64,000 bases of DNA from Clostridia bacterium (lineage in GTDB: Bacteria; Bacillota; Clostridia; Oscillospirales; CAG-382): positions 62,001 to 126,000 of the forward strand of contig JAFSCS010000014.1 in assembly GCA_017436675.1 (NCBI GenBank). Reading direction: 5' to 3'. The first letter of the stretch is position 1, and every line of letters begins with the position of its first letter. Below, piece by piece: positions 44,652 to 55,454 of this stretch. Below the pieces are notes generated by a model, which made no database searches, was not told the origin of the DNA, and saw only the letters and a program-made list of their open reading frames with translations. The position numbers and the translations under genes are program-made.

Positions 44652-45926
44652 ATGTATAACGAACAGATAAAAAAAGATTTTCTTTCAATACTTTCCGAAG
44701 AGCTCGTCCCCGCGATGGGATGCACCGAGCCGATCGCGCTCGCTTATGCTTCCGCGAAAGCACGTGAGCTGCTCGGCAGAGCACCGACACGAATAATCGC
44801 TCGTTGCAGCGGAAATATAATAAAGAACGTTCGTTGCGTTCGTATCCCGAACTCCGACGGAATGACCGGCATCGAGGCGGCTTGTGCTCTCGGTGCGCTC
44901 GCCGGTGACGCCGAGCGTCAAATGGAGGTCTTGGAGACCGTTTGTGATGAGGACAGAGCGAATACGATAAGATTCTTGCGAGAGGGAAGATGTACCTCCG
45001 AATTCCTCGAAAGCAATATCCCGCTACACTTCATAATAGAGCTTCGAAGCGGTAATTCCTATGCTACCGTTGAGGTGCGCCACTCGCATACGAATATTTA
45101 TAAGCTCGAAAAGGACGGCGAAACGCTCTTTCTCGGTGAAGATAGCGAGGACCTCACCCAACTCGCCGACAGAAGCGAGCTTTGCATCGACAATATATAT
45201 GATTTTTGCAACAATATAGAGCTTGAACGTATCACACCGTTCACCGAAAAGCAGATCGAATGCAATATGGCGATCGCCGAGCGCGGAATGGACGGCGAAT
45301 ATGGTGTCGGAATAGGAAAAGCGATCCTCGAGGCATATGGCGAAAGCACGTTCAACAAAATGCGCGCCTATGCGGCATCAGCCTCCGAGGCGAGAATGGA
45401 CGGATGCGACCTTCCCGTAATAATCACCTCGGGAAGCGGAAACCAAGGGATAACCTCGACCGTCCCCATTATCGTATATGCAAGAGAAAAGGGAATAGAT
45501 GACGAGTTGCTTGCGAGAACGCTCGTGTTCTCGGCACTGTTGACCGTCTACCAAAAGGAATATATCGGAAAGCTCTCTGCATTTTGCGGCGCAGTGTCAG
45601 CCGCTTGCTCTGCGGGAGCTGCCATAACGTATATGGTCGGCGGAAGCTTGACGCAGATCAAGGATACTGTCGACAACACTCTTGCCGATATCCCCGGAAT
45701 AATATGCGACGGCGCGAAGGCGTCGTGCGGTGCGAAGATCTCGTCCGCGCTCGATGCGGCTTTGTTCGCACATACTCTCGCCATGAAGGGCAAGGTATAT
45801 GAATCCAATACAGGTATCATCCGTGACGATACGGGTGAAACGATAAGCTGGGTTGGTCATATCGGAAAGGTCGGAATGATGCCGACGGATAAAGAAATAG
45901 TAAAACTAATGGTGAACAACTCCTGA
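44652..45926 (+). CDS. UPF0597 / L-cysteine desulfidase family protein
   Basis: 424 residues, GGAG 8 bases upstream. Family motifs: ELVPAMGCTEPIALAYASAKA near 15-35 with a cluster cysteine, GMTGIEAACALGALAG near 78, SGSGNQGITSTVPI near 258 and CGAVSAACSAGAAITYMVGG near 315, whose cysteines bind an oxygen-sensitive [4Fe-4S] cluster in CyuA-type enzymes. Such enzymes break L-cysteine to pyruvate, ammonia and sulfide, or act on related amino acids. It opens the operon with N-formylglutamate amidohydrolase, a beta-barrel-like membrane protein and two ATP-grasp ligases, though the 13-base gap after it might allow separate control. Confidence 0.9.
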   Translation: MYNEQIKKDFLSILSEELVPAMGCTEPIALAYASAKARELLGRAPTRIIARCSGNIIKNVRCVRIPNSDGMTGIEAACALGALAGDAERQMEVLETVCDEDRANTIRFLREGRCTSEFLESNIPLHFIIELRSGNSYATVEVRHSHTNIYKLEKDGETLFLGEDSEDLTQLADRSELCIDNIYDFCNNIELERITPFTEKQIECNMAIAERGMDGEYGVGIGKAILEAYGESTFNKMRAYAASASEARMDGCDLPVIITSGSGNQGITSTVPIIVYAREKGIDDELLARTLVFSALLTVYQKEYIGKLSAFCGAVSAACSAGAAITYMVGGSLTQIKDTVDNTLADIPGIICDGAKASCGAKISSALDAALFAHTLAMKGKVYESNTGIIRDDTGETISWVGHIGKVGMMPTDKEIVKLMVNNS

Positions 45927-45939
45927 AACGAGGCGTAAT

Positions 45940-46599
45940 ATGTTTGATATCGAAGCTTATAAAAAGTATGAGCAATATTTTGAGACCGAGAAGACCGAAT
46001 CCTTCGAGCTCCTTTCGGGAAAAGGAAAGCTGATCGTATCCGCACCCCATAGCGTTGAGCAAACTCGAAACGGTTCAAAAAAGTTCTCTGAACCGCAAAC
46101 GGGTGTGATCGCAAAAATGCTCCACGACGAGCTCGGCATCCCCGTTATATATAAAACGAAGAATTGCGGCGACGACGCCAACTACGATGCGGTCTCACCC
46201 TATAAGGACGCACTTGTAGAGTATATAAAAGAAAATAAAATAGAATTTATGCTCGATCTTCATCAGCTTTCCCAGAAGCGTGACGTGATGATCGATATCG
46301 GAACGGGGAAATATAAAAACGTGAAGGACCCCGCTATCGTCGAGGTTGCATATAGAATATTTGAAAAATATGATCTCGGAAGGATAGAGATAGATACACC
46401 CTTTGACGCATCCTATCCGTATACTCTTTCGTCATATATAGCAAGAAACTGCAATATATCGTGCCTGCAGCTCGAGCTGAATTCAAAGCTCGTAAGAACG
46501 GACAGTAGCTCATCCAAGGAGGAAAAGGTGTTCTCGTCACTCGTCGAATTGATCGACGCGATCGAGAGCACACTATCGCAGAACTATGAAAAAGAATAG
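45940..46599 (+). CDS. N-formylglutamate amidohydrolase family protein
   Basis: 219 residues, GAGGCG before the start. Zinc ligands of the family are visible in LIVSAPHSVEQTRNG near residue 33, DLHQLSQKRDVMIDIGTG near 105 and a C-terminal LQLELNSKLVR near 180. Characterised members hydrolyse N-formylglutamate; related ones cut amide bonds such as poly-gamma-glutamate or ligase products. In this operon the enzyme is next to two RimK-like amino-acid ligases, so it is a good candidate to undo or trim what they make. Its stop overlaps the next start by 14 bases. Confidence 0.78.
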   Translation: MFDIEAYKKYEQYFETEKTESFELLSGKGKLIVSAPHSVEQTRNGSKKFSEPQTGVIAKMLHDELGIPVIYKTKNCGDDANYDAVSPYKDALVEYIKENKIEFMLDLHQLSQKRDVMIDIGTGKYKNVKDPAIVEVAYRIFEKYDLGRIEIDTPFDASYPYTLSSYIARNCNISCLQLELNSKLVRTDSSSSKEEKVFSSLVELIDAIESTLSQNYEKE

Positions 46600-47902
46600 C
46601 TCTCTTTTTGAATTTTCGGCTGACTCAATAAAATTTCGCTATGGAAAAACGGTGACCGAGCCGTTTGGCGAAAGCACAAATTTGAATTTCCTCGACGAAA
46701 GATTTTCATATCCCGATAAGCTCAACGTTCTCGCCGTTTCTCCGAAAGTCTATTCGGAATTCAAAAATGAGATAGTCCTATTGACCAAAAAAGGCTCAAA
46801 AGCATACGTTAACGTCACGTTGAGAAAAAGGGAGAATATCGACGACAGCCAATTTCTCGCCTCGTCACATATAAAAGAGGAGATAGGCTTGACGAACGGA
46901 GACGAGGTCGAGCTCTGCCGCTACAAAAAAACACGCTTCAACAAAATAATGACACAAAAGATCGACTTTATCCGCGAAAATGAGCTCGTATTGTCGCAAT
47001 ATGACGCCGACGGAAACAAGATCGAGCTTGACGAATATAAATATTTTGAGCTGTATAACCCAATAACCTGCGATAATATTATCGTGAAGCGCAGCCATAT
47101 CAGAATTGACGAAGAGCTGAAAAACGGAACGATACGCCTGAACCGAAAGCAACGCTTCTGCCTTGGCTGTGAGCTCGTCCACATTTTGACACCGTGGCAG
47201 TGGGAGATACTTGAAAATAACCTGAACGAAGCAGAGCTTTCGCTGATAAAGGAGATATTTGTCGGAGAAGATCATCTCCTCGATAAAACGAGCTCGTTTA
47301 AGCAGAAGCTTGATGCAAAAAATATCCTTTCCCGCTATTTTGCGAACGAGCTTCGAATGATCCCCGTTTTGCGCTCGGGCACACAGAGGAAAAAGAGCCT
47401 CGCACGTCGCCTTTCCGATCTGTACGTCGGAAAAAGCACGACCTCGCTGATCTGTCGCCGCCCGTACGATAACGACGAGGGACTCGACATCGTCCGAATG
47501 ACTCGCTCGAATATGAACCTGCTCGGTATCGACGAAATGGATAAGGTGATATTACAATATAAAAACAAACGAGTCAGCACCCGAGTGCTCGAGCTCGACG
47601 ATGACGAAGCGTTTTTGGAAACGAACCAACCGATCTCGACCGATCTTGTCGTCTGTCTGCCCGTGCATATAAGGAAACAGCTTGGAGTCCTCGATCTGAA
47701 CTCGACCGTCAAGGTCGACAGAGATACTGCATTCATTTTCAAAAAGAGCATCAACGAGCAGATAGTTCCCGTTCTGTTGACGCTGTTTTCAACGAATCTG
47801 TTCAACGACGTATCTGTGATCTTGTCGGCGGCATTATCGGTACTCGCGATCCCGATCGTGCTCTATTTCAACTTGTCCTCAAAACGTAATATGAGGGCTT
47901 AA
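46586..47902 (+). CDS. Unknown C-terminally membrane-anchored protein with double-psi-barrel-like segments
   Basis: 438 residues. No signal peptide; one C-terminal hydrophobic stretch (about 392-430, VPVLLTLFSTNLFNDVSVILS...) suggests a tail anchor facing the cytosol. Segments around 95-110 (GLTNGDEVELCRYKK), 315-345 (MTRSNMNLLGIDEMDKVILQYKNKR) and 355-380 (VVCLPVHIRKQLGVLDLNSTVKV) resemble the paired double-psi beta barrels of the Cdc48/VAT N-domain, which hold a peptide or nucleic acid strand. This is weak pattern matching. It overlaps the amidohydrolase gene by 14 bases and precedes two ATP-grasp ligases by 12 bases; it may be the membrane scaffold or target of the modification. Confidence 0.5.
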   Translation: MKKNSSLFEFSADSIKFRYGKTVTEPFGESTNLNFLDERFSYPDKLNVLAVSPKVYSEFKNEIVLLTKKGSKAYVNVTLRKRENIDDSQFLASSHIKEEIGLTNGDEVELCRYKKTRFNKIMTQKIDFIRENELVLSQYDADGNKIELDEYKYFELYNPITCDNIIVKRSHIRIDEELKNGTIRLNRKQRFCLGCELVHILTPWQWEILENNLNEAELSLIKEIFVGEDHLLDKTSSFKQKLDAKNILSRYFANELRMIPVLRSGTQRKKSLARRLSDLYVGKSTTSLICRRPYDNDEGLDIVRMTRSNMNLLGIDEMDKVILQYKNKRVSTRVLELDDDEAFLETNQPISTDLVVCLPVHIRKQLGVLDLNSTVKVDRDTAFIFKKSINEQIVPVLLTLFSTNLFNDVSVILSAALSVLAIPIVLYFNLSSKRNMRA

Positions 47903-47914
47903 CAGGAGAAAACT

Positions 47915-48775
47915 ATGTTAGGATGGCTAATAGTCAACGGCTTCTTGGAGTCGAAAAAATTTGATGAGATATATTCGTTTTTGAAGAACGCATCGCGCTG
48001 TGTCGGCATCACCCTTGAAATAAAAACGAACGTTGAGCTGATGAATTCTCTTGACGATCAATATATGATAAAGCCCGATCTGGTGTTGTTTTGGGACAAG
48101 GATGTCTATCTTGCGAAAAGACTCGAGGGACTCGGGATCCGCCTCTTTAACAGCGCCGCCTCCGTCGAGATCTGCGACAATAAAATATTGACGGCATTAA
48201 CGCTCCAAGGTAACGTAAAAACTCCGAAAACAGTCATCGCACCGAAGACGTTTGAGGGCGTCGGCTACACAAAAAAAGATTTTTTGAAAAAGGCAATAGA
48301 AATTTTGTCGCTTCCGGTGGTAATAAAGGAAGCATACGGTTCCTTCGGTCAGCAGGTGTATCTTGCGAAAACACTCTCCGAGGCGGAAGCGATCGTCGAC
48401 AAGCTCGGTCATAAGGAGTTTTTGCTCCAAGAGTTTGTAAAAACGAGCGAGGGCAGGGACGTTCGCGTCAACGTTGTCGGCGGAAAGGTCGTGTCTTCAA
48501 TGCTAAGATATAACGAAAACGACTTCCGTTCAAACATAACGAACGGCGGCAGTATGAAAAAATACGATATCTCTCCCGCTTGGGCAGATGCGGCAGTGAA
48601 GGCGTGCGAAACGATCGGACTCGACTTTGCGGGTGTTGACGTGATGTTCGGCGAAAATGATGAGCCGATGATCTGCGAGGTCAACTCCAACCCCCATTTT
48701 AAAAGCAGCTTTGAGTGTAACGGAGTCGATATGAGTATGTGTATTATGAGCTACGTTAAGGAACAAATGCAATGA
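47915..48775 (+). CDS. RimK-like ATP-grasp ligase 1
   Basis: 286 residues, AGGAGAAAACT before the start. An N-terminal Rossmann-like domain (1-80) is followed by the ATP-grasp core: VVIKEAYGSFGQQVYL near 145 (ATP lysine and glycine loop), LLQEFVKTSEGRDVRVNVVGG near 170, the arginine in SSMLRYNENDFRSN, a GG motif and the metal ligands of MICEVNSNPHF (ExN) near 263. The family joins an amino acid to a carboxylate with ATP, as RimK adds glutamate to ribosomal protein S6 or F420/pteridine ligases do. Its stop overlaps the second ligase start by 4 bases. Confidence 0.88.
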   Translation: MLGWLIVNGFLESKKFDEIYSFLKNASRCVGITLEIKTNVELMNSLDDQYMIKPDLVLFWDKDVYLAKRLEGLGIRLFNSAASVEICDNKILTALTLQGNVKTPKTVIAPKTFEGVGYTKKDFLKKAIEILSLPVVIKEAYGSFGQQVYLAKTLSEAEAIVDKLGHKEFLLQEFVKTSEGRDVRVNVVGGKVVSSMLRYNENDFRSNITNGGSMKKYDISPAWADAAVKACETIGLDFAGVDVMFGENDEPMICEVNSNPHFKSSFECNGVDMSMCIMSYVKEQMQ

Positions 48776-49572
48776 AAGGTCTGTTGATATACGATAACAT
48801 CGGAAAAAACCGTAACGAATGGTTTATCGATGCGCTTATAAATACGGCAAAAAAATATGACATCGAGCTTGAATTGCTCGTCGTTGACGGAAACGAACCG
48901 TTCTCGCTTGAGAACTTTCCCGACATTGCACTGGTTAGAGTTATCGCACCGCAAATAAACGAATACCTCGAAAAAAACGGCGTAAAAGTGTTTAATAACT
49001 ATAAAACCTCATATTACGCCAACAATAAGTGGAATACATATCTGCTCTCAAAAGAGCTTGGAATAAACGTAATGAACACAACACTTCCGGATAATATTGA
49101 AGATATCACCTATCCGTTCGTCGTAAAATCGCTCGACGGCCACGGCGGAAGCGAGGTGTTCCTCGTCAATTCAAGTGAAGAATACGATATAGTAGCTAAA
49201 AAGCTAAAAAAAGACTACCTCATCCAAGAAAAATGCTCCAACGTAGGAAAGGACGTTCGGGTTTATTCGCTCGACGGTGAGATCGTCGCCTCAATATTGC
49301 GAGAAAGTGAAAGTGATTTTCGAAGCAACTTTTCTCTCGGCGGAAGAGTCAGCGTGTTCGAAGCGACCGACGAAATGAAAAATACCGTGAAAAAGTTGTA
49401 TGATACACTCGGCTTTTCCCTCGTCGGAGTCGATTTCATATCGCATAACGGAAAATGGGTGCTAAACGAGCTCGAGGACGTCGTCGGTACGCGTATGCTC
49501 TATAAATGCACCGATATCGATATCGTTGATATGTATCTTGATTCAATATCCCAAAAAATAAAGTCAGTGTGA
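48772..49572 (+). CDS. RimK-like ATP-grasp ligase 2, variant metal site
   Basis: 266 residues, coupled to ligase 1. It keeps the ATP-grasp plan: VVKSLDGHGGSEVFL near 122, LIQEKCSNVGKDVRVYSLDGE near 144 and SILRESESDFRSNFSLGGR near 180, all alignable with ligase 1. At the C-terminus the usual ExN metal pair reads NELEDVVGTRML, so the asparagine is replaced by glutamate. Metal binding or specificity may therefore differ. The last codons (KSV stop) lie within the left end of the 49.6-kb inverted-repeat element. The two ligases appear to be ancient duplicates with separate acceptors. Confidence 0.82.
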   Translation: MKGLLIYDNIGKNRNEWFIDALINTAKKYDIELELLVVDGNEPFSLENFPDIALVRVIAPQINEYLEKNGVKVFNNYKTSYYANNKWNTYLLSKELGINVMNTTLPDNIEDITYPFVVKSLDGHGGSEVFLVNSSEEYDIVAKKLKKDYLIQEKCSNVGKDVRVYSLDGEIVASILRESESDFRSNFSLGGRVSVFEATDEMKNTVKKLYDTLGFSLVGVDFISHNGKWVLNELEDVVGTRMLYKCTDIDIVDMYLDSISQKIKSV

Positions 49573-51052: not shown

Positions 51053-51952
51053 GTGTCAAGTGTAATGAATACAAAACGTAATATTTTGATAGCCTTTCTC
51101 CTAAACCTCATCTTCTCCGTCTTCGAGTTCTTCGGCGGCATCATCAGCGGAAGCAGTGCAATACTTTCCGATGCAGTCCACGACCTCGGTGACGCGCTCA
51201 GTATCGGTGTGTCGTTTTTTCTTGAACGCAAGAGCAAACGGGAAGCGGATGAAAAGTATACCTTCGGCTATACACGATATTCCATCCTCGGAAGCATAAT
51301 AACCACCCTCGTGCTTTTGATAGGCTCGTGCTTAGTGGTGTACGGTGCCGTCAGAAGATTGATCGATCCGAGCGAGATCAACTATAACGAAATGATATTG
51401 TTTGCCGTGATCGGAGTCGTCGTGAATTTGAGTGCCGCATTGATAACGAGAAAGGGCGAGTCGTTAAATCAAAGAGCAGTCAATCTGCATATGCTCGAGG
51501 ACGTCCTCGGATGGCTCGTCGTCCTCGCCGCCGCAATAATAATGCGCTTTACCGACATCACCTATCTCGATCCGTTGACGTCTATCGCCATTTCGTTGTT
51601 CATCATCTATCACGCATTACTTAACCTGAAGTCTTCTTTTGAGATCCTGCTTGGGAAATGCCCGCGCTCGATAAATTCTCAAAACGTTAAGAGTGAGCTC
51701 CAAAAGCTCGACGGCGTAAACGAAATAAAGCTGTTACAGATATGGAGCCTTGACGAGAATAACGTCTGTGCGATCTTGAAGCTTACATACGATCACGCAA
51801 ATTCAAGGCTGAAGGACGAAATACGGAATATCCTGATCGGCTCGGGCGTGACTCAGCCGACGATCGAGCTTCTCGATGAAAATGAGGACGGATCCGTTTA
51901 TCACTTCAAAACGGAACAAAACGAATTGCATCATCATCACCATCACCATTAA
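51053..51952 (+). CDS. CDF-family metal cation efflux transporter with natural poly-His tail
   Basis: 299 residues from GTG at 51053 (an ATG four codons later is the alternative; neither has ideal ribosome spacing). Six helices with the two CDF metal motifs: SDAVHDLGDAL near 40-50 (HxxxD) and NLHMLEDVLGW near 147-157 (HxxxD), as in CzcD-type Zn2+/Cd2+ exporters. The cytosolic C-terminal domain ends in ELHHHHHHH, seven histidines encoded right before the stop, a natural metal-sensing or buffering tail. Controlled by the adjacent TetR through operators. Confidence 0.9.
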   Translation: MSSVMNTKRNILIAFLLNLIFSVFEFFGGIISGSSAILSDAVHDLGDALSIGVSFFLERKSKREADEKYTFGYTRYSILGSIITTLVLLIGSCLVVYGAVRRLIDPSEINYNEMILFAVIGVVVNLSAALITRKGESLNQRAVNLHMLEDVLGWLVVLAAAIIMRFTDITYLDPLTSIAISLFIIYHALLNLKSSFEILLGKCPRSINSQNVKSELQKLDGVNEIKLLQIWSLDENNVCAILKLTYDHANSRLKDEIRNILIGSGVTQPTIELLDENEDGSVYHFKTEQNELHHHHHHH

Positions 51953-51955
51953 AAA

Positions 51956-51991
51956 ACGTTTCCCGCAATTTGCGGGAAACGTAATTTTTTT
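51956..51991. terminator. Terminator of the CDF gene, convergent with the kinase operon
   Basis: 12-bp stem ACGTTTCCCGCA/TGCGGGAAACGT with a 3-base loop, followed by TAATTTTTTT on the plus strand; A-rich flank gives a T tract on the minus strand too. Confidence 0.88.
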
Positions 51992-52592
51992 ATATATCAA
52001 GCCTGCTTTTGATCTCTCTGACCAGATTGGAATAGTCCGAAAGTACATCAGTGCAGACCTTCAGCACCCTTTCGCTTGGCAAAGAGTCGACGTATCTTTC
52101 ATATTCGAGATTCAAATTTTTGATAAAATCCACGTCAATATCCTTCTCGAAGCCTCTTCCGCGTGCGGCGATGCGCTCAAGCTGAGTCTTCTCGCTGCAA
52201 TAGAAATAAACGTGCAACGACACCTCGGGAGTCAGCTCAAGAAAGCGACGGTTTAGCCGCTCCAACGTGGCAAATTGTTCGCCACTGATTATCCCGAGCT
52301 TTTTTTGAAGCCGAGCATAGCACATCAGCTCTTGTATACCGTTGTCCAAAATCCCGACCTTATAAGGGGGCACAAGTCTGTCAAATTGTCGGGACATCAT
52401 CCGAAGCATCTCGAGTGAGGATAAAAAACCCCAATCCCCGTGTAGCTCGTCATAAGCCTGCTCGATATACGGATTGTCGGAAAGATCCTCCTCAACGAAT
52501 CGAAAATCGTTGTCGAGCAATTCGACCGCCTTTCCCACCGTTGTCTTTCCAACACCGATAGAGCCGAAAAAGCTGACGTATTTACACATCAT
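51990..52592 (-). CDS. Deoxynucleoside-kinase-like protein with altered DRS motif
   Basis: 200 residues; AGAGGAAGCT before the first ATG. P-loop FFGSIGVGKTTVGKAV at the N-terminus, EEDLSDNPYIEQAY for the substrate-side glutamate region, and the LID segment ERIAARGRGFEKDID with several arginines match the dNK/dCK/dGK family. The usual (D/E)RS motif after the third strand reads LDNGIQE instead of LDRSIYE, so an arginine that contacts the phosphoryl acceptor is missing. It may use an unusual substrate. It is the last gene of an eight-gene operon behind a ThiC-like enzyme and a NUDIX hydrolase, overlapping the latter by 11 bases. Confidence 0.8.
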   Translation of the reverse strand: MMCKYVSFFGSIGVGKTTVGKAVELLDNDFRFVEEDLSDNPYIEQAYDELHGDWGFLSSLEMLRMMSRQFDRLVPPYKVGILDNGIQELMCYARLQKKLGIISGEQFATLERLNRRFLELTPEVSLHVYFYCSEKTQLERIAARGRGFEKDIDVDFIKNLNLEYERYVDSLPSERVLKVCTDVLSDYSNLVREIKSRLDI

Positions 52593-53100
52593 AGCTTCCT
52601 CTTCCGTCCCTCATCGAAAAGAGAAGATCGATAAATCCCTTTTTGTATTGAACGAAGCTTTTGTCGTCAGTCATCCTTTTGATCTCGTCATAGCTTGCAA
52701 AACGGACGGCTGTGACCTCTTCGGGCTGGATCGTGACCTCGTCAAGCGAAACGTCTTTGGTTATAATGAAATAATCATCAAATCCGAGCGGATAATCGAT
52801 AGTGAAGATCGGACGCTTGTCTTCAAGAGCGATCGATAGCCCAAGCTCCTCCGAGATCTCCCGAACAGCACCCTCATAAGAGGTCTCGCCCGCTCTGACA
52901 CCGCCGCCGGACGTGATATCCCAGCATCCGGGCCAATCCTTTTTGTCCTCTTTCCGCTTTTGGATGAGCATCTCGCCGCGTGAGTTGAATATGACCAAAT
53001 GGGCGATCAAAATAAATTCATCGTCACAAAGCGGAGAGCCCTTTATCTTTTTAACACCGCTAAGCTTACGCTCCGCAGTATAAATATCTACGTATTCCAT
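52582..53100 (-). CDS. NUDIX hydrolase (IPP-isomerase-like subfamily)
   Basis: 172 residues, AAGGAG 9 bases upstream (spanning the ThiC-like stop). The NUDIX box GVRAGETSYEGAVREISEELGL (parts GVRAGET and REISEELGL) fits the Gx5Ex7REUxEExGU consensus with two catalytic glutamates. The front half (MEYVDIYTAERKL..., LVIFNSRGEMLIQKR, DWPGCWDITSGG) has the layout of the YfcD/IDI-type NUDIX subfamily, which cleaves nucleoside diphosphate derivatives or acts on related phosphates. In this operon it may clean up or make a precursor for the ThiC-like or kinase partner. Overlaps the kinase gene by 11 bases. Confidence 0.85.
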   Translation of the reverse strand: MEYVDIYTAERKLSGVKKIKGSPLCDDEFILIAHLVIFNSRGEMLIQKRKEDKKDWPGCWDITSGGGVRAGETSYEGAVREISEELGLSIALEDKRPIFTIDYPLGFDDYFIITKDVSLDEVTIQPEEVTAVRFASYDEIKRMTDDKSFVQYKKGFIDLLFSMRDGRGSYDV

Positions 53101-53106
53101 CTGTAT

Positions 53107-54258
53107 CTACTCCTTGTTGCGTTGTTTTTTTAACGGACAATATTCACCACACATAGAGCATACTCTTTCGTCTGCAAGCTCTTTGTATATCTCCGTTGGG
53201 AAAAGTGCTGCTTCAACGTCGCCCAAGCATCCCTTTTTGAATCGTTCGGAGGACATCCGCCTGTCTCGCTCAAGATCTCCCGTCCTTGCGGAATATCCGA
53301 TGTGTGCCGCAATTATTGCCGAGATCACGCCCTCCTCCGTATCCTCGAACGAGGGGATCCCAATATGCTCCTTCCTTGTGACACAGGTTATGCTGTCAGC
53401 TCCGTGCTGAATAGCGGTTGCCGCCGCGATCGCCGACGAAATGTGATCGAATCCGATGGCAACATCCGTCGCAACGGGCATGATTCGGTATGCCGCCTCG
53501 GGACAAAGCTCCTTTGCCTTCGAAACGAGCCTCGGTATATCGACGAGAGATGCGTGACCGATGCCCTCGATCATAATTGTAACACCGCTTTTTGCCGCCA
53601 TTTTGACAAGCTCTGCCATCCTCGTCAGCTCCAGAACGTGAAGCGTGTCGCCCTCGCGTGCGTCAACGACCGACGCGGGACGAAACATCGGTGCAAGACT
53701 TATCGATGCTCCGTATTCAATGCAAAGCTTCAAAATATCGTCGAAATAAGTATAATAGGGATTTTCAAGCTCAGCCGCCTCAAGCAGCTCAAGCATCATC
53801 ATCCCGCCTCTCGAGGTCGATGGAATGATCCTGCCCGATCCTTGAAAAAGCGATCTGTCATCGCGAAAAACCGTCGCGTGTAAGGTCAAAAGATCGGCGC
53901 CTCGACGAAGCTGAGCCTCAAGATCACGAAAAAACGATTCCTTTGAAACGGAGAGGTACTCTTTTTTTGTGCGAACAAAGGTCTCATAAACACTGACTAC
54001 TCCGAAAGGAACGTCGAGCACCCTCGCGAGTCTTTCGTGCAGTAGTGCCATATTTGAATTCGTGCTGACGTCACAAATGGCGTCCGCACCCAATTCTATC
54101 GCACGTAAAGCCTTTTTTGCTTCGATCTCAATAGCTTCATCAAGCTCTTCCTTTGTTTGAAACTCACTGATTATCCCAACGTGAGTGAATATGATCGGCT
54201 TGGCGTTTTCACCGATGTCGATAGGAGAAACGCCTCGCAATTTCCCGCCCAAAAGCAT
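53107..54258 (-). CDS. Divergent, N-terminally short ThiC-like radical enzyme
   Basis: 383 residues from the ATG at 54258 (GAGG just upstream); the stop of the previous gene is only 11 bases away, so a standard 60-70 residue longer N-terminus cannot exist. The ThiC core is seen in TSRGGMMMLELLEA near 165, MIEGIGHASLVDI near 240, TDVAIGFDHISSAIAAA near 275 and the C-terminal cluster motif CSMCGEYC (CX2CX3C, the pattern used by short anaerobe ThiC). Several usual residues change: SLGDACRPGS reads SLAPMFRPAS, and MIEGPGH reads MIEGIGH. True ThiC makes HMP-P from AIR using SAM; this may be a paralogue with another product. No TPP riboswitch precedes it. Confidence 0.75.
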   Translation of the reverse strand: MLLGGKLRGVSPIDIGENAKPIIFTHVGIISEFQTKEELDEAIEIEAKKALRAIELGADAICDVSTNSNMALLHERLARVLDVPFGVVSVYETFVRTKKEYLSVSKESFFRDLEAQLRRGADLLTLHATVFRDDRSLFQGSGRIIPSTSRGGMMMLELLEAAELENPYYTYFDDILKLCIEYGASISLAPMFRPASVVDAREGDTLHVLELTRMAELVKMAAKSGVTIMIEGIGHASLVDIPRLVSKAKELCPEAAYRIMPVATDVAIGFDHISSAIAAATAIQHGADSITCVTRKEHIGIPSFEDTEEGVISAIIAAHIGYSARTGDLERDRRMSSERFKKGCLGDVEAALFPTEIYKELADERVCSMCGEYCPLKKQRNKE

Positions 54259-54269
54259 TGATCCTCACC

Positions 54270-55454
54270 TCACGAAGCTTTATTGAATTTATAGTGTTCG
54301 CAAATCATATTCAGCATTTCGGAAAGCTTGGGAGTCGGGTCTTGCTTTCCGTAAAAGGCAGCAGCGTGGGTGAATACCTCATCGTCCTGCAAGAACAAAG
54401 AGATAAGAAGCTCCTTTTCGTTGTCGGAGAGCCGTCCGAGCTTTTCGTTTATGACGTCAGGCGTGTCGGTAAGGTTGATAACGTTGTTTTTGTTGTGAAC
54501 GTTGATCCGTTTCCCGTCCTTGTCGACGATGGAGTTCGTCAGAATGAAAAAGATGTCGTTTCTTTTTCTGATATCGTTCAAGGGTTGATAGTCCCATATC
54601 TCAAGCGCGACCTTGTTGTCGAGCACGAAAAGACGGGAGGAACGATACTTTTCCGCGAGCATCCAGATCGGGAACGAGGATTCCATATGTGATATACGTC
54701 TCTTAAACGTCGAATAGTCAATATTTCCGTTTTCGGTCGAATTCGTTTTTGCAAAATAGAGAATGAATGAGTTGTATATATTTCTGAACGATTCAGCATA
54801 CTTTTTCGGATTGCTCTTATAAAACTCTGTCTCACGATAGAAAATAACGTTTTTCCCCAAGATCTTTCTTGCGTTTTCCTCAAAGCTGCGACATATCTCG
54901 TCGTATTCAACGGCAAGTCCGTTCGGATCAGCATCGGGATTTGGGATATCTTTACCGTCCGTGAGATTTTTACATTCCTTGATGTGATCGGGGAAGTGAA
55001 GCCCGATGATCAAGGTACATTGAAGCTTTTCGCGAAGCGATCTCAAATAGAGAAAATATATGTAGTCGATCCAATTCAAATATGCCTTCGCCGAAAGCGA
55101 ATAATAAAGAACGTTGCTGTGCTTTTTTCTGCCCTCGGCGGCAACGATCTTGCTGTTGTCCTCGTCGAATGCAAACAGAGTGCTTCCGTCGGTCAGCTTG
55201 AAATTGTTGCTCACCTCAACAATACTCTTCTTCGTCTGCGTGTAGTCTATCCTCGCAGTACTGCAGAATTTGATGATGAATACACCGGCAATACCGATAA
55301 TAAACCAAATTCCCGAAAAGATCAGAACTCTGAGTCCGGGTGAGAGAAAATCTTTATCAAAAAGTCCATAAAAATATTCACAGACCAAACCTAAAATAGT
55401 TGATCCTATAAAGCTTAAAAATGCTGTAACGTTAACGTTGCGAAGTTTTTTCAT
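54270..55454 (-). CDS. TM protein with possible class I aaRS/HUP-like cytosolic domain
   Basis: 394 residues. Two N-terminal helices (about 10-28 and 45-65) and a cytosolic region. Within the latter the segment DGKRINVHNKNNVINLTDTPDVINEKL (about 315-340, given in part) recalls the KMSKS-loop and following LSDTPEEIRKK pattern of TrpRS/TyrRS-type HUP enzymes, and NWIDYIYFLYLRSL... LIIGLHFPDH near 130-155 could be the Rossmann strand. No HIGH motif is visible. This is tentative; no family is recognised. It sits 9 bases after the YjbR gene and 11 before the ThiC-like gene, in the coupled operon. Confidence 0.5.
   Translation of the reverse strand: MKKLRNVNVTAFLSFIGSTILGLVCEYFYGLFDKDFLSPGLRVLIFSGIWFIIGIAGVFIIKFCSTARIDYTQTKKSIVEVSNNFKLTDGSTLFAFDEDNSKIVAAEGRKKHSNVLYYSLSAKAYLNWIDYIYFLYLRSLREKLQCTLIIGLHFPDHIKECKNLTDGKDIPNPDADPNGLAVEYDEICRSFEENARKILGKNVIFYRETEFYKSNPKKYAESFRNIYNSFILYFAKTNSTENGNIDYSTFKRRISHMESSFPIWMLAEKYRSSRLFVLDNKVALEIWDYQPLNDIRKRNDIFFILTNSIVDKDGKRINVHNKNNVINLTDTPDVINEKLGRLSDNEKELLISLFLQDDEVFTHAAAFYGKQDPTPKLSEMLNMICEHYKFNKAS

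Follow-up and report, generated by a model that had tools for sequence, protein, structure and literature searches.

The 64-kb stretch of DNA analysed here, referred to below as the window (contig bases 62001-126000 of a MAG, probably of a member of Bacillota judging by the matches in the searches, with an assembly of 1.535 Mb and a completeness of 53.94%), encodes a ThiC-like protein that is probably a non-canonical radical SAM enzyme of predicted ThiC fold, which no longer makes HMP-P and has a new substrate and/or product, the compound acted on likely being a 5'-phosphorylated ribotide. Its gene belongs to a minus-strand trio at window positions 51990-54258, in which it is followed by the genes for a NUDIX hydrolase and a deoxynucleoside-kinase-like (dNK-like) protein. 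An earlier note on this DNA had described the trio as tightly coupled, and this is borne out by a gap of 6 bp between the ThiC-like and NUDIX genes, an overlap of 11 bp between the NUDIX and dNK-like genes, and a strong common terminator. The features of the locus are:

53107..54258, minus strand: ThiC-like radical SAM protein of 383 aa, (beta/alpha)8 barrel with a C-terminal CSMCGEYC cluster motif (open reading frame, PF01964, AlphaFold2 model, PDB match)
52582..53100, minus strand: NUDIX hydrolase of 172 aa with an intact Nudix box, GGVRAGETSYEGAVREISEELG (open reading frame, Pfam)
51990..52592, minus strand: deoxynucleoside-kinase-like protein of 200 aa that retains the P-loop, the catalytic Glu and the lid Arg but has substrate-pocket residues replaced (PF01712 and residue comparison)
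51956..51982, minus strand: bidirectional intrinsic terminator 3' of the trio, with a 12-bp stem
54270..55454, minus strand: possible fourth member, a protein without a family match, for which two helices are predicted at the N-terminus

The Pfam assignments of the trio are far beyond chance (E-values of 7e-83 for ThiC_Rad_SAM, 3.1e-16 for NUDIX and 2.2e-21 for dNK). The gene at 54270-55454 stops 11 bp ahead of the ATG of the ThiC-like gene and may be co-transcribed with it; for its product, neither Pfam nor PHROG nor the PDB offers a convincing relative, PADLOC gives weak matches only, and the single-sequence model is unreliable (pLDDT 42.8). A reading of the locus as a defense system was rejected, as PADLOC returned generic NUDIX and kinase hits along with weak matches, and the PHROGs search likewise gave generic NUDIX and kinase matches only. 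Contamination of the MAG contig was also rejected: other genes in the window find matches, at 48-52%, in genomes of the same family. In the collection of papers searched, none connected ThiC with a dNK and a NUDIX protein. On the opposite strand, a gene for a CDF-family cation efflux protein with a C-terminal tail of seven histidines (HHHHHHH; 51053-51952, plus strand) runs convergently toward the trio, and the two share the bidirectional terminator between them. Further away, positions 44652-49572 (plus strand) hold a possible biosynthetic operon, suggestive of amino-acid or peptide ligation: two RimK-like ATP-grasp ligases are encoded there in tandem, together with a serine-dehydratase-alpha-like protein and two proteins without assignment.

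A ThiC-like enzyme with a new function might, of course, merely lie beside a NUDIX hydrolase and a kinase that are unrelated housekeeping proteins. The NUDIX protein, which matches the GX5EX7REUXEEXGU box and scores 60 bits against PF00293, has relatives in a single genus of the same family that are about 40% identical to it, and its subfamily includes stand-alone members in that family; this gene may therefore be only loosely linked to the other two. Moreover, two neighbors upstream of the trio are carbohydrate genes. However, a chance neighborhood does not sit well with the close spacing and the shared terminator, nor with the unusual circumstance that the ThiC-like and kinase genes both lack close homologues across the sampled order, and we regard it as unlikely.

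The ThiC-like protein can confidently be called a real member of PF01964 with a predicted ThiC fold. It exceeds the gathering score of the family by far (279.2 bits vs. 25), and an AlphaFold2 model, for which 31 ThiC homologues were aligned with the protein, reached a pLDDT of 90.9 and a pTM of 0.90. When this model was compared with the PDB by Foldseek, the 13 best matches were all ThiC crystal structures, the closest being that of Arabidopsis ThiC (AtThiC; 4s27, TMq 0.90). None of the equivalog cut-offs for ThiC is reached, however (284 vs. 410 for NF009895, 261 vs. 460 for TIGR00190, and 200 vs. 650 for NF006763). The protein is also shorter at its N-terminus. The missing N-terminus is genuine, since the open frame reaches just two codons upstream of the ATG, which is preceded by a ribosome-binding-like motif, GGTGAGG. 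The earlier note had put the loss at 60-70 residues; the loss itself stands, but its extent has to be corrected to about 50 model positions, as the Pfam match begins at model position 50. The two altered motifs quoted in the same note, SLAPMFRPAS and MIEGIGH, are present at residues 187-196 and 229-235.

To place such changes in the active site, residues were mapped onto AtThiC, whose numbering is used below, in an alignment with 173 other sequences comprising canonical ThiC, BzaA and BzaB; residue roles in AtThiC follow PMC4389238. The machinery for radical generation is retained: the [4Fe-4S] ligands, Cys367, Cys370 and Cys374 in the protein's own numbering, are found in CSMCGEYC (codons 53137..53160, minus strand), and both metal histidines, His426 and His490, are kept, as are Glu489 and the SAM-site residues Gly230 and Met572. 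The same is true of the phosphate/SAM residues Tyr286, His322, Ser342, Arg343, Gly344 and Arg386, and of Glu422, which contacts the 2'-OH. Tyr449 is probably kept, although this hinges on the position chosen for a one-residue gap in the alignment. Three positions with assigned roles in HMP-P chemistry (Asn228: PMC11117688, PMC4389238; Asp383 and the catalytic cysteine: PMC11117688) have changed:

54181..54183, minus strand: His26 codon, equivalent to AtThiC Asn228 (ribose 3'-OH contact); Asn in 146/173 homologues, Ser, Leu or Thr in the rest, His in none
53689..53691, minus strand: Pro190 codon, equivalent to AtThiC Asp383 (imidazole N3 acid); Asp in 172/173 homologues
53386..53388, minus strand: Thr291 codon, equivalent to AtThiC Cys483 and CcThiC Cys474 (catalytic cysteine); Cys in 173/173 homologues

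The equivalence of Cys483 and CcThiC Cys474 follows from a numbering offset of 9 (His417 vs. His426), and no gap interrupts the alignment between that point and the EH motif. The only other sequence in the alignment that is changed at 383 is a second ThiC-family copy of Methanobrevibacter cuticularis (L173, 1462-2802), in which residue 228 is Thr, residue 383 is Asn and RPG has become RAG.

These replacements bear directly on the possibility that the protein is a genuine HMP-P synthase for thiamine that has diverged very far, with compensated changes in its active site. Membership in PF01964, the complete radical SAM machinery and the lack of any other ThiC in the assembly would fit such a role. 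However, a 2024 study of ThiC intermediates showed that AtThiC D383A, AtThiC N228D and CcThiC C474S each consume AIR and form shunt products only, but no HMP-P (PMC11117688). As all three residues, each of them singly required, are replaced here, formation of HMP-P by the known route is very unlikely.

The genomic context of thiamine metabolism points in the same direction. The ThiC-like gene is the one PF01964 gene of the assembly, so that no canonical ThiC was found elsewhere in what is a 54%-complete genome. Neither ThiD nor ThiE nor ThiM was detected by tblastn with Monoglobus queries (E<=1e-3) in the whole 1.535 Mb assembly; since the MAG is half complete and missing genes may lie in its unsequenced parts, these absences are supportive rather than conclusive. 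At the canonical thiC loci of the family, the same ThiD query detects an adjacent thiD in 6/6 cases. The sole TPP riboswitch of the assembly precedes an open reading frame matching the thiamine transporter ThiT/YuaJ, and the host bacterium thus seems to import thiamine. This may indeed be the rule in the family, as 29 of its 32 near-complete genomes lack any ThiC. The earlier note had also pointed to the absence of a TPP riboswitch, and Rfam confirms this, with no match in the 64-kb window and none at E<=1 around the locus. As evidence this is weak, because none of the six canonical thiC loci in the same family carries one in the fetched flank either, compared with 9/14 canonical loci at the order level. 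Taken together, the claim that the protein does not serve thiamine synthesis is well supported by the three replaced HMP-P residues, by a position in the tree outside ThiC, BzaA and BzaB (see below), and by the lack of a canonical ThiC and of detectable ThiD, ThiE and ThiM; a genuine but divergent HMP-P synthase is decidedly unlikely.

Phylogenetically, the protein is isolated. In a FastTree analysis of 174 sequences and 373 columns, which took in ThiC, BzaA and BzaB, its branch was the longest (2.26 substitutions per site, against 1.04 for the second longest). It attaches outside the ThiC, BzaA and BzaB sequences, nearest to a divergent archaeal sequence (L008), with local supports of 0.81-0.84 and a risk of long-branch effects. 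PF01964 occurs in only six others of 63 family genomes, all of them canonical with 632-648 bits. No close homologue was found in 295 genomes of the order (best <=35% identity), in 398 genomes of the phylum (best <=39% among matches at E<=1e-60), or when 84,980 species genomes were scanned by pattern (best <=38%), a method that relies on exact 8-residue patterns, which distant orthologues could escape. Viral contigs contained no orthologue of either the ThiC-like protein or the kinase, and the best plasmid and phage matches are ThiC homologues of <=36% identity.

For a benzimidazole-forming paralogue of the BzaF or BzaA/BzaB type, which would make a cobamide lower ligand from AIR, the ThiC paralogues of Bacillota provide a precedent, and BzaA/BzaB loci are common in that phylum. 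Nevertheless, the protein branches outside both BzaA and BzaB, shows neither the BzaA signature (S226, S228, Y/H343, K422) nor that of BzaB (L228), and has lost D383 and C483, which both paralogues keep. Its score against the BzaB model TIGR04386 is 204 vs. a cut-off of 700, and no cobamide-synthesis Pfam match was obtained among the scanned neighbors, all of which makes this origin highly improbable. Among the other genomes sampled, second ThiC-family copies in G763 and G765 (class of L020), considered as possible BzaF references, carry the ordinary ThiC signature. A tandem ThiC-family pair in G370 (L151, 1069-2370 and 2436-3725) has S228, with H343 and K422 in one member; these signatures are related to those of BzaA/BzaB found at other loci but differ from them.

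The very long branch can also be reconciled with relaxed constraint, and the ThiC-like gene might accordingly be a fast-evolving relic, decaying or recently acquired, without physiological function. Besides the branch length, 25 of 80 near-invariant alignment columns are altered, the N-terminus is truncated, and the codon usage of the kinase gene ranks 3rd lowest among the 54 open reading frames of the window. Against decay, however, stand the intact frame, the ribosome-binding-like motif, the operon with its terminator, and the confident AlphaFold2 model. More importantly, the loss of residues for HMP chemistry while those for cluster, metal, SAM and phosphate binding are retained is a non-random pattern, and the partner kinase displays the same combination of kept catalysis and altered pocket. 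A relic is thus unlikely.

For this kinase, the earlier note had used the word atypical, and the residue comparison agrees. The protein scores 77 bits against PF01712 (cut-off 27), and the columns of the P-loop Lys, the catalytic Glu, the DxS-type Asp and the lid Arg, invariant in 38/38 dNK homologues, are all kept, including three lid arginines. Four substrate-pocket residues have changed: compared with the 38 homologues, the positions equivalent to dCK Q97, R104, R128 and D133 (an assignment made in the present analysis) carry S, M, N and L. In dCK, Gln97, Glu53, Arg128 and Asp133 are ligand contacts (PMC11053780). With the nucleoside-recognition residues gone, the kinase may act on something other than a nucleoside. 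The family and order genomes sampled contained no close homologue of it (order: none at E<=1e-10). Elsewhere in its genome, one further and very weak match to the dNK family (G000:C36:20032-20586, minus strand; 26 bits) is probably another P-loop kinase. The main argument for a shared pathway arises from the parallel between the two enzymes: because catalysis is kept and recognition rebuilt in both, we infer that the ThiC-like protein and the kinase act on the same unusual compound.

The reading we prefer is therefore that of a ThiC-fold enzyme with altered chemistry, for which we infer the catalytic activity, the phosphorylated substrate and the part that the kinase and NUDIX proteins play in the pathway as follows. 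The C-terminal [4Fe-4S] cluster and the metal at His426/His490 would bind and cleave SAM in the manner of ThiC, and the resulting 5'-deoxyadenosyl radical would take a hydrogen from a 5'-phosphorylated, ribose-containing substrate, which might be gripped by the retained phosphate site together with Glu422 at its 2'-OH. With the base-protonating Asp, the Asn contacting the 3'-OH and the late hydrogen-donor Cys all replaced, either the substrate or what becomes of the radical, and perhaps both, should be unlike ThiC. The radical would not be expected to take the route to HMP-P: the base may be other than aminoimidazole, or the ribotide may be fragmented instead of undergoing ring expansion. The kinase relative with its altered pocket may phosphorylate the substrate or the product, and the NUDIX protein may hydrolyze a diphosphate or have a clean-up role. 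It is plausible that the trio builds and phosphorylates a nucleotide-derived small molecule. A more specific and tentative proposal, which we consider possible, is that the locus represents an undescribed lineage of the ThiC family, performing a new radical rearrangement or fragmentation on a 5'-phosphorylated nucleoside-like compound from a dedicated, repurposed dNK-type kinase, and thereby providing a new small molecule or a salvage or detoxification step. A ThiC-like locus of this kind could reveal a new nucleotide-derived metabolite. Moreover, a natural enzyme in which the radical generator is kept and the residues steering toward HMP-P are replaced would test how the ThiC fold evolves new reactions.

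Among known systems, ThiC itself (phosphomethylpyrimidine synthase; PF01964; TIGR00190; NF009895) shares with the present protein the predicted fold, the cluster motif, the metal histidines, and the contacts to SAM and phosphate. The ThiC-like protein differs, however, in being only 31-39% identical to ThiC, in lacking about 50 N-terminal model positions, in scoring well under the equivalog cut-offs, and in carrying the substitutions D383P, N228H, C483T, M257C, L259V, G388A and P424I. BzaA and BzaB (TIGR04386) are likewise ThiC-family paralogues altered at residue 228 and neighboring sites, but their branches lie within the ThiC tree and both retain D383 and C483, neither of which holds for the ThiC-like protein. 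BzaF, a 5-hydroxybenzimidazole synthase, sets the precedent for a ThiC-type enzyme that makes another product from AIR (PMC11117688). As for the partner, bacterial deoxynucleoside kinases (PF01712; Bacillus dgk/dck) have in common with it the P-loop, the catalytic Glu, the lid Arg triad and the DxS-type Asp, while the recognition residues Q97, R104, R128 and D133, or their dgk equivalents, are absent from the dNK-like protein.
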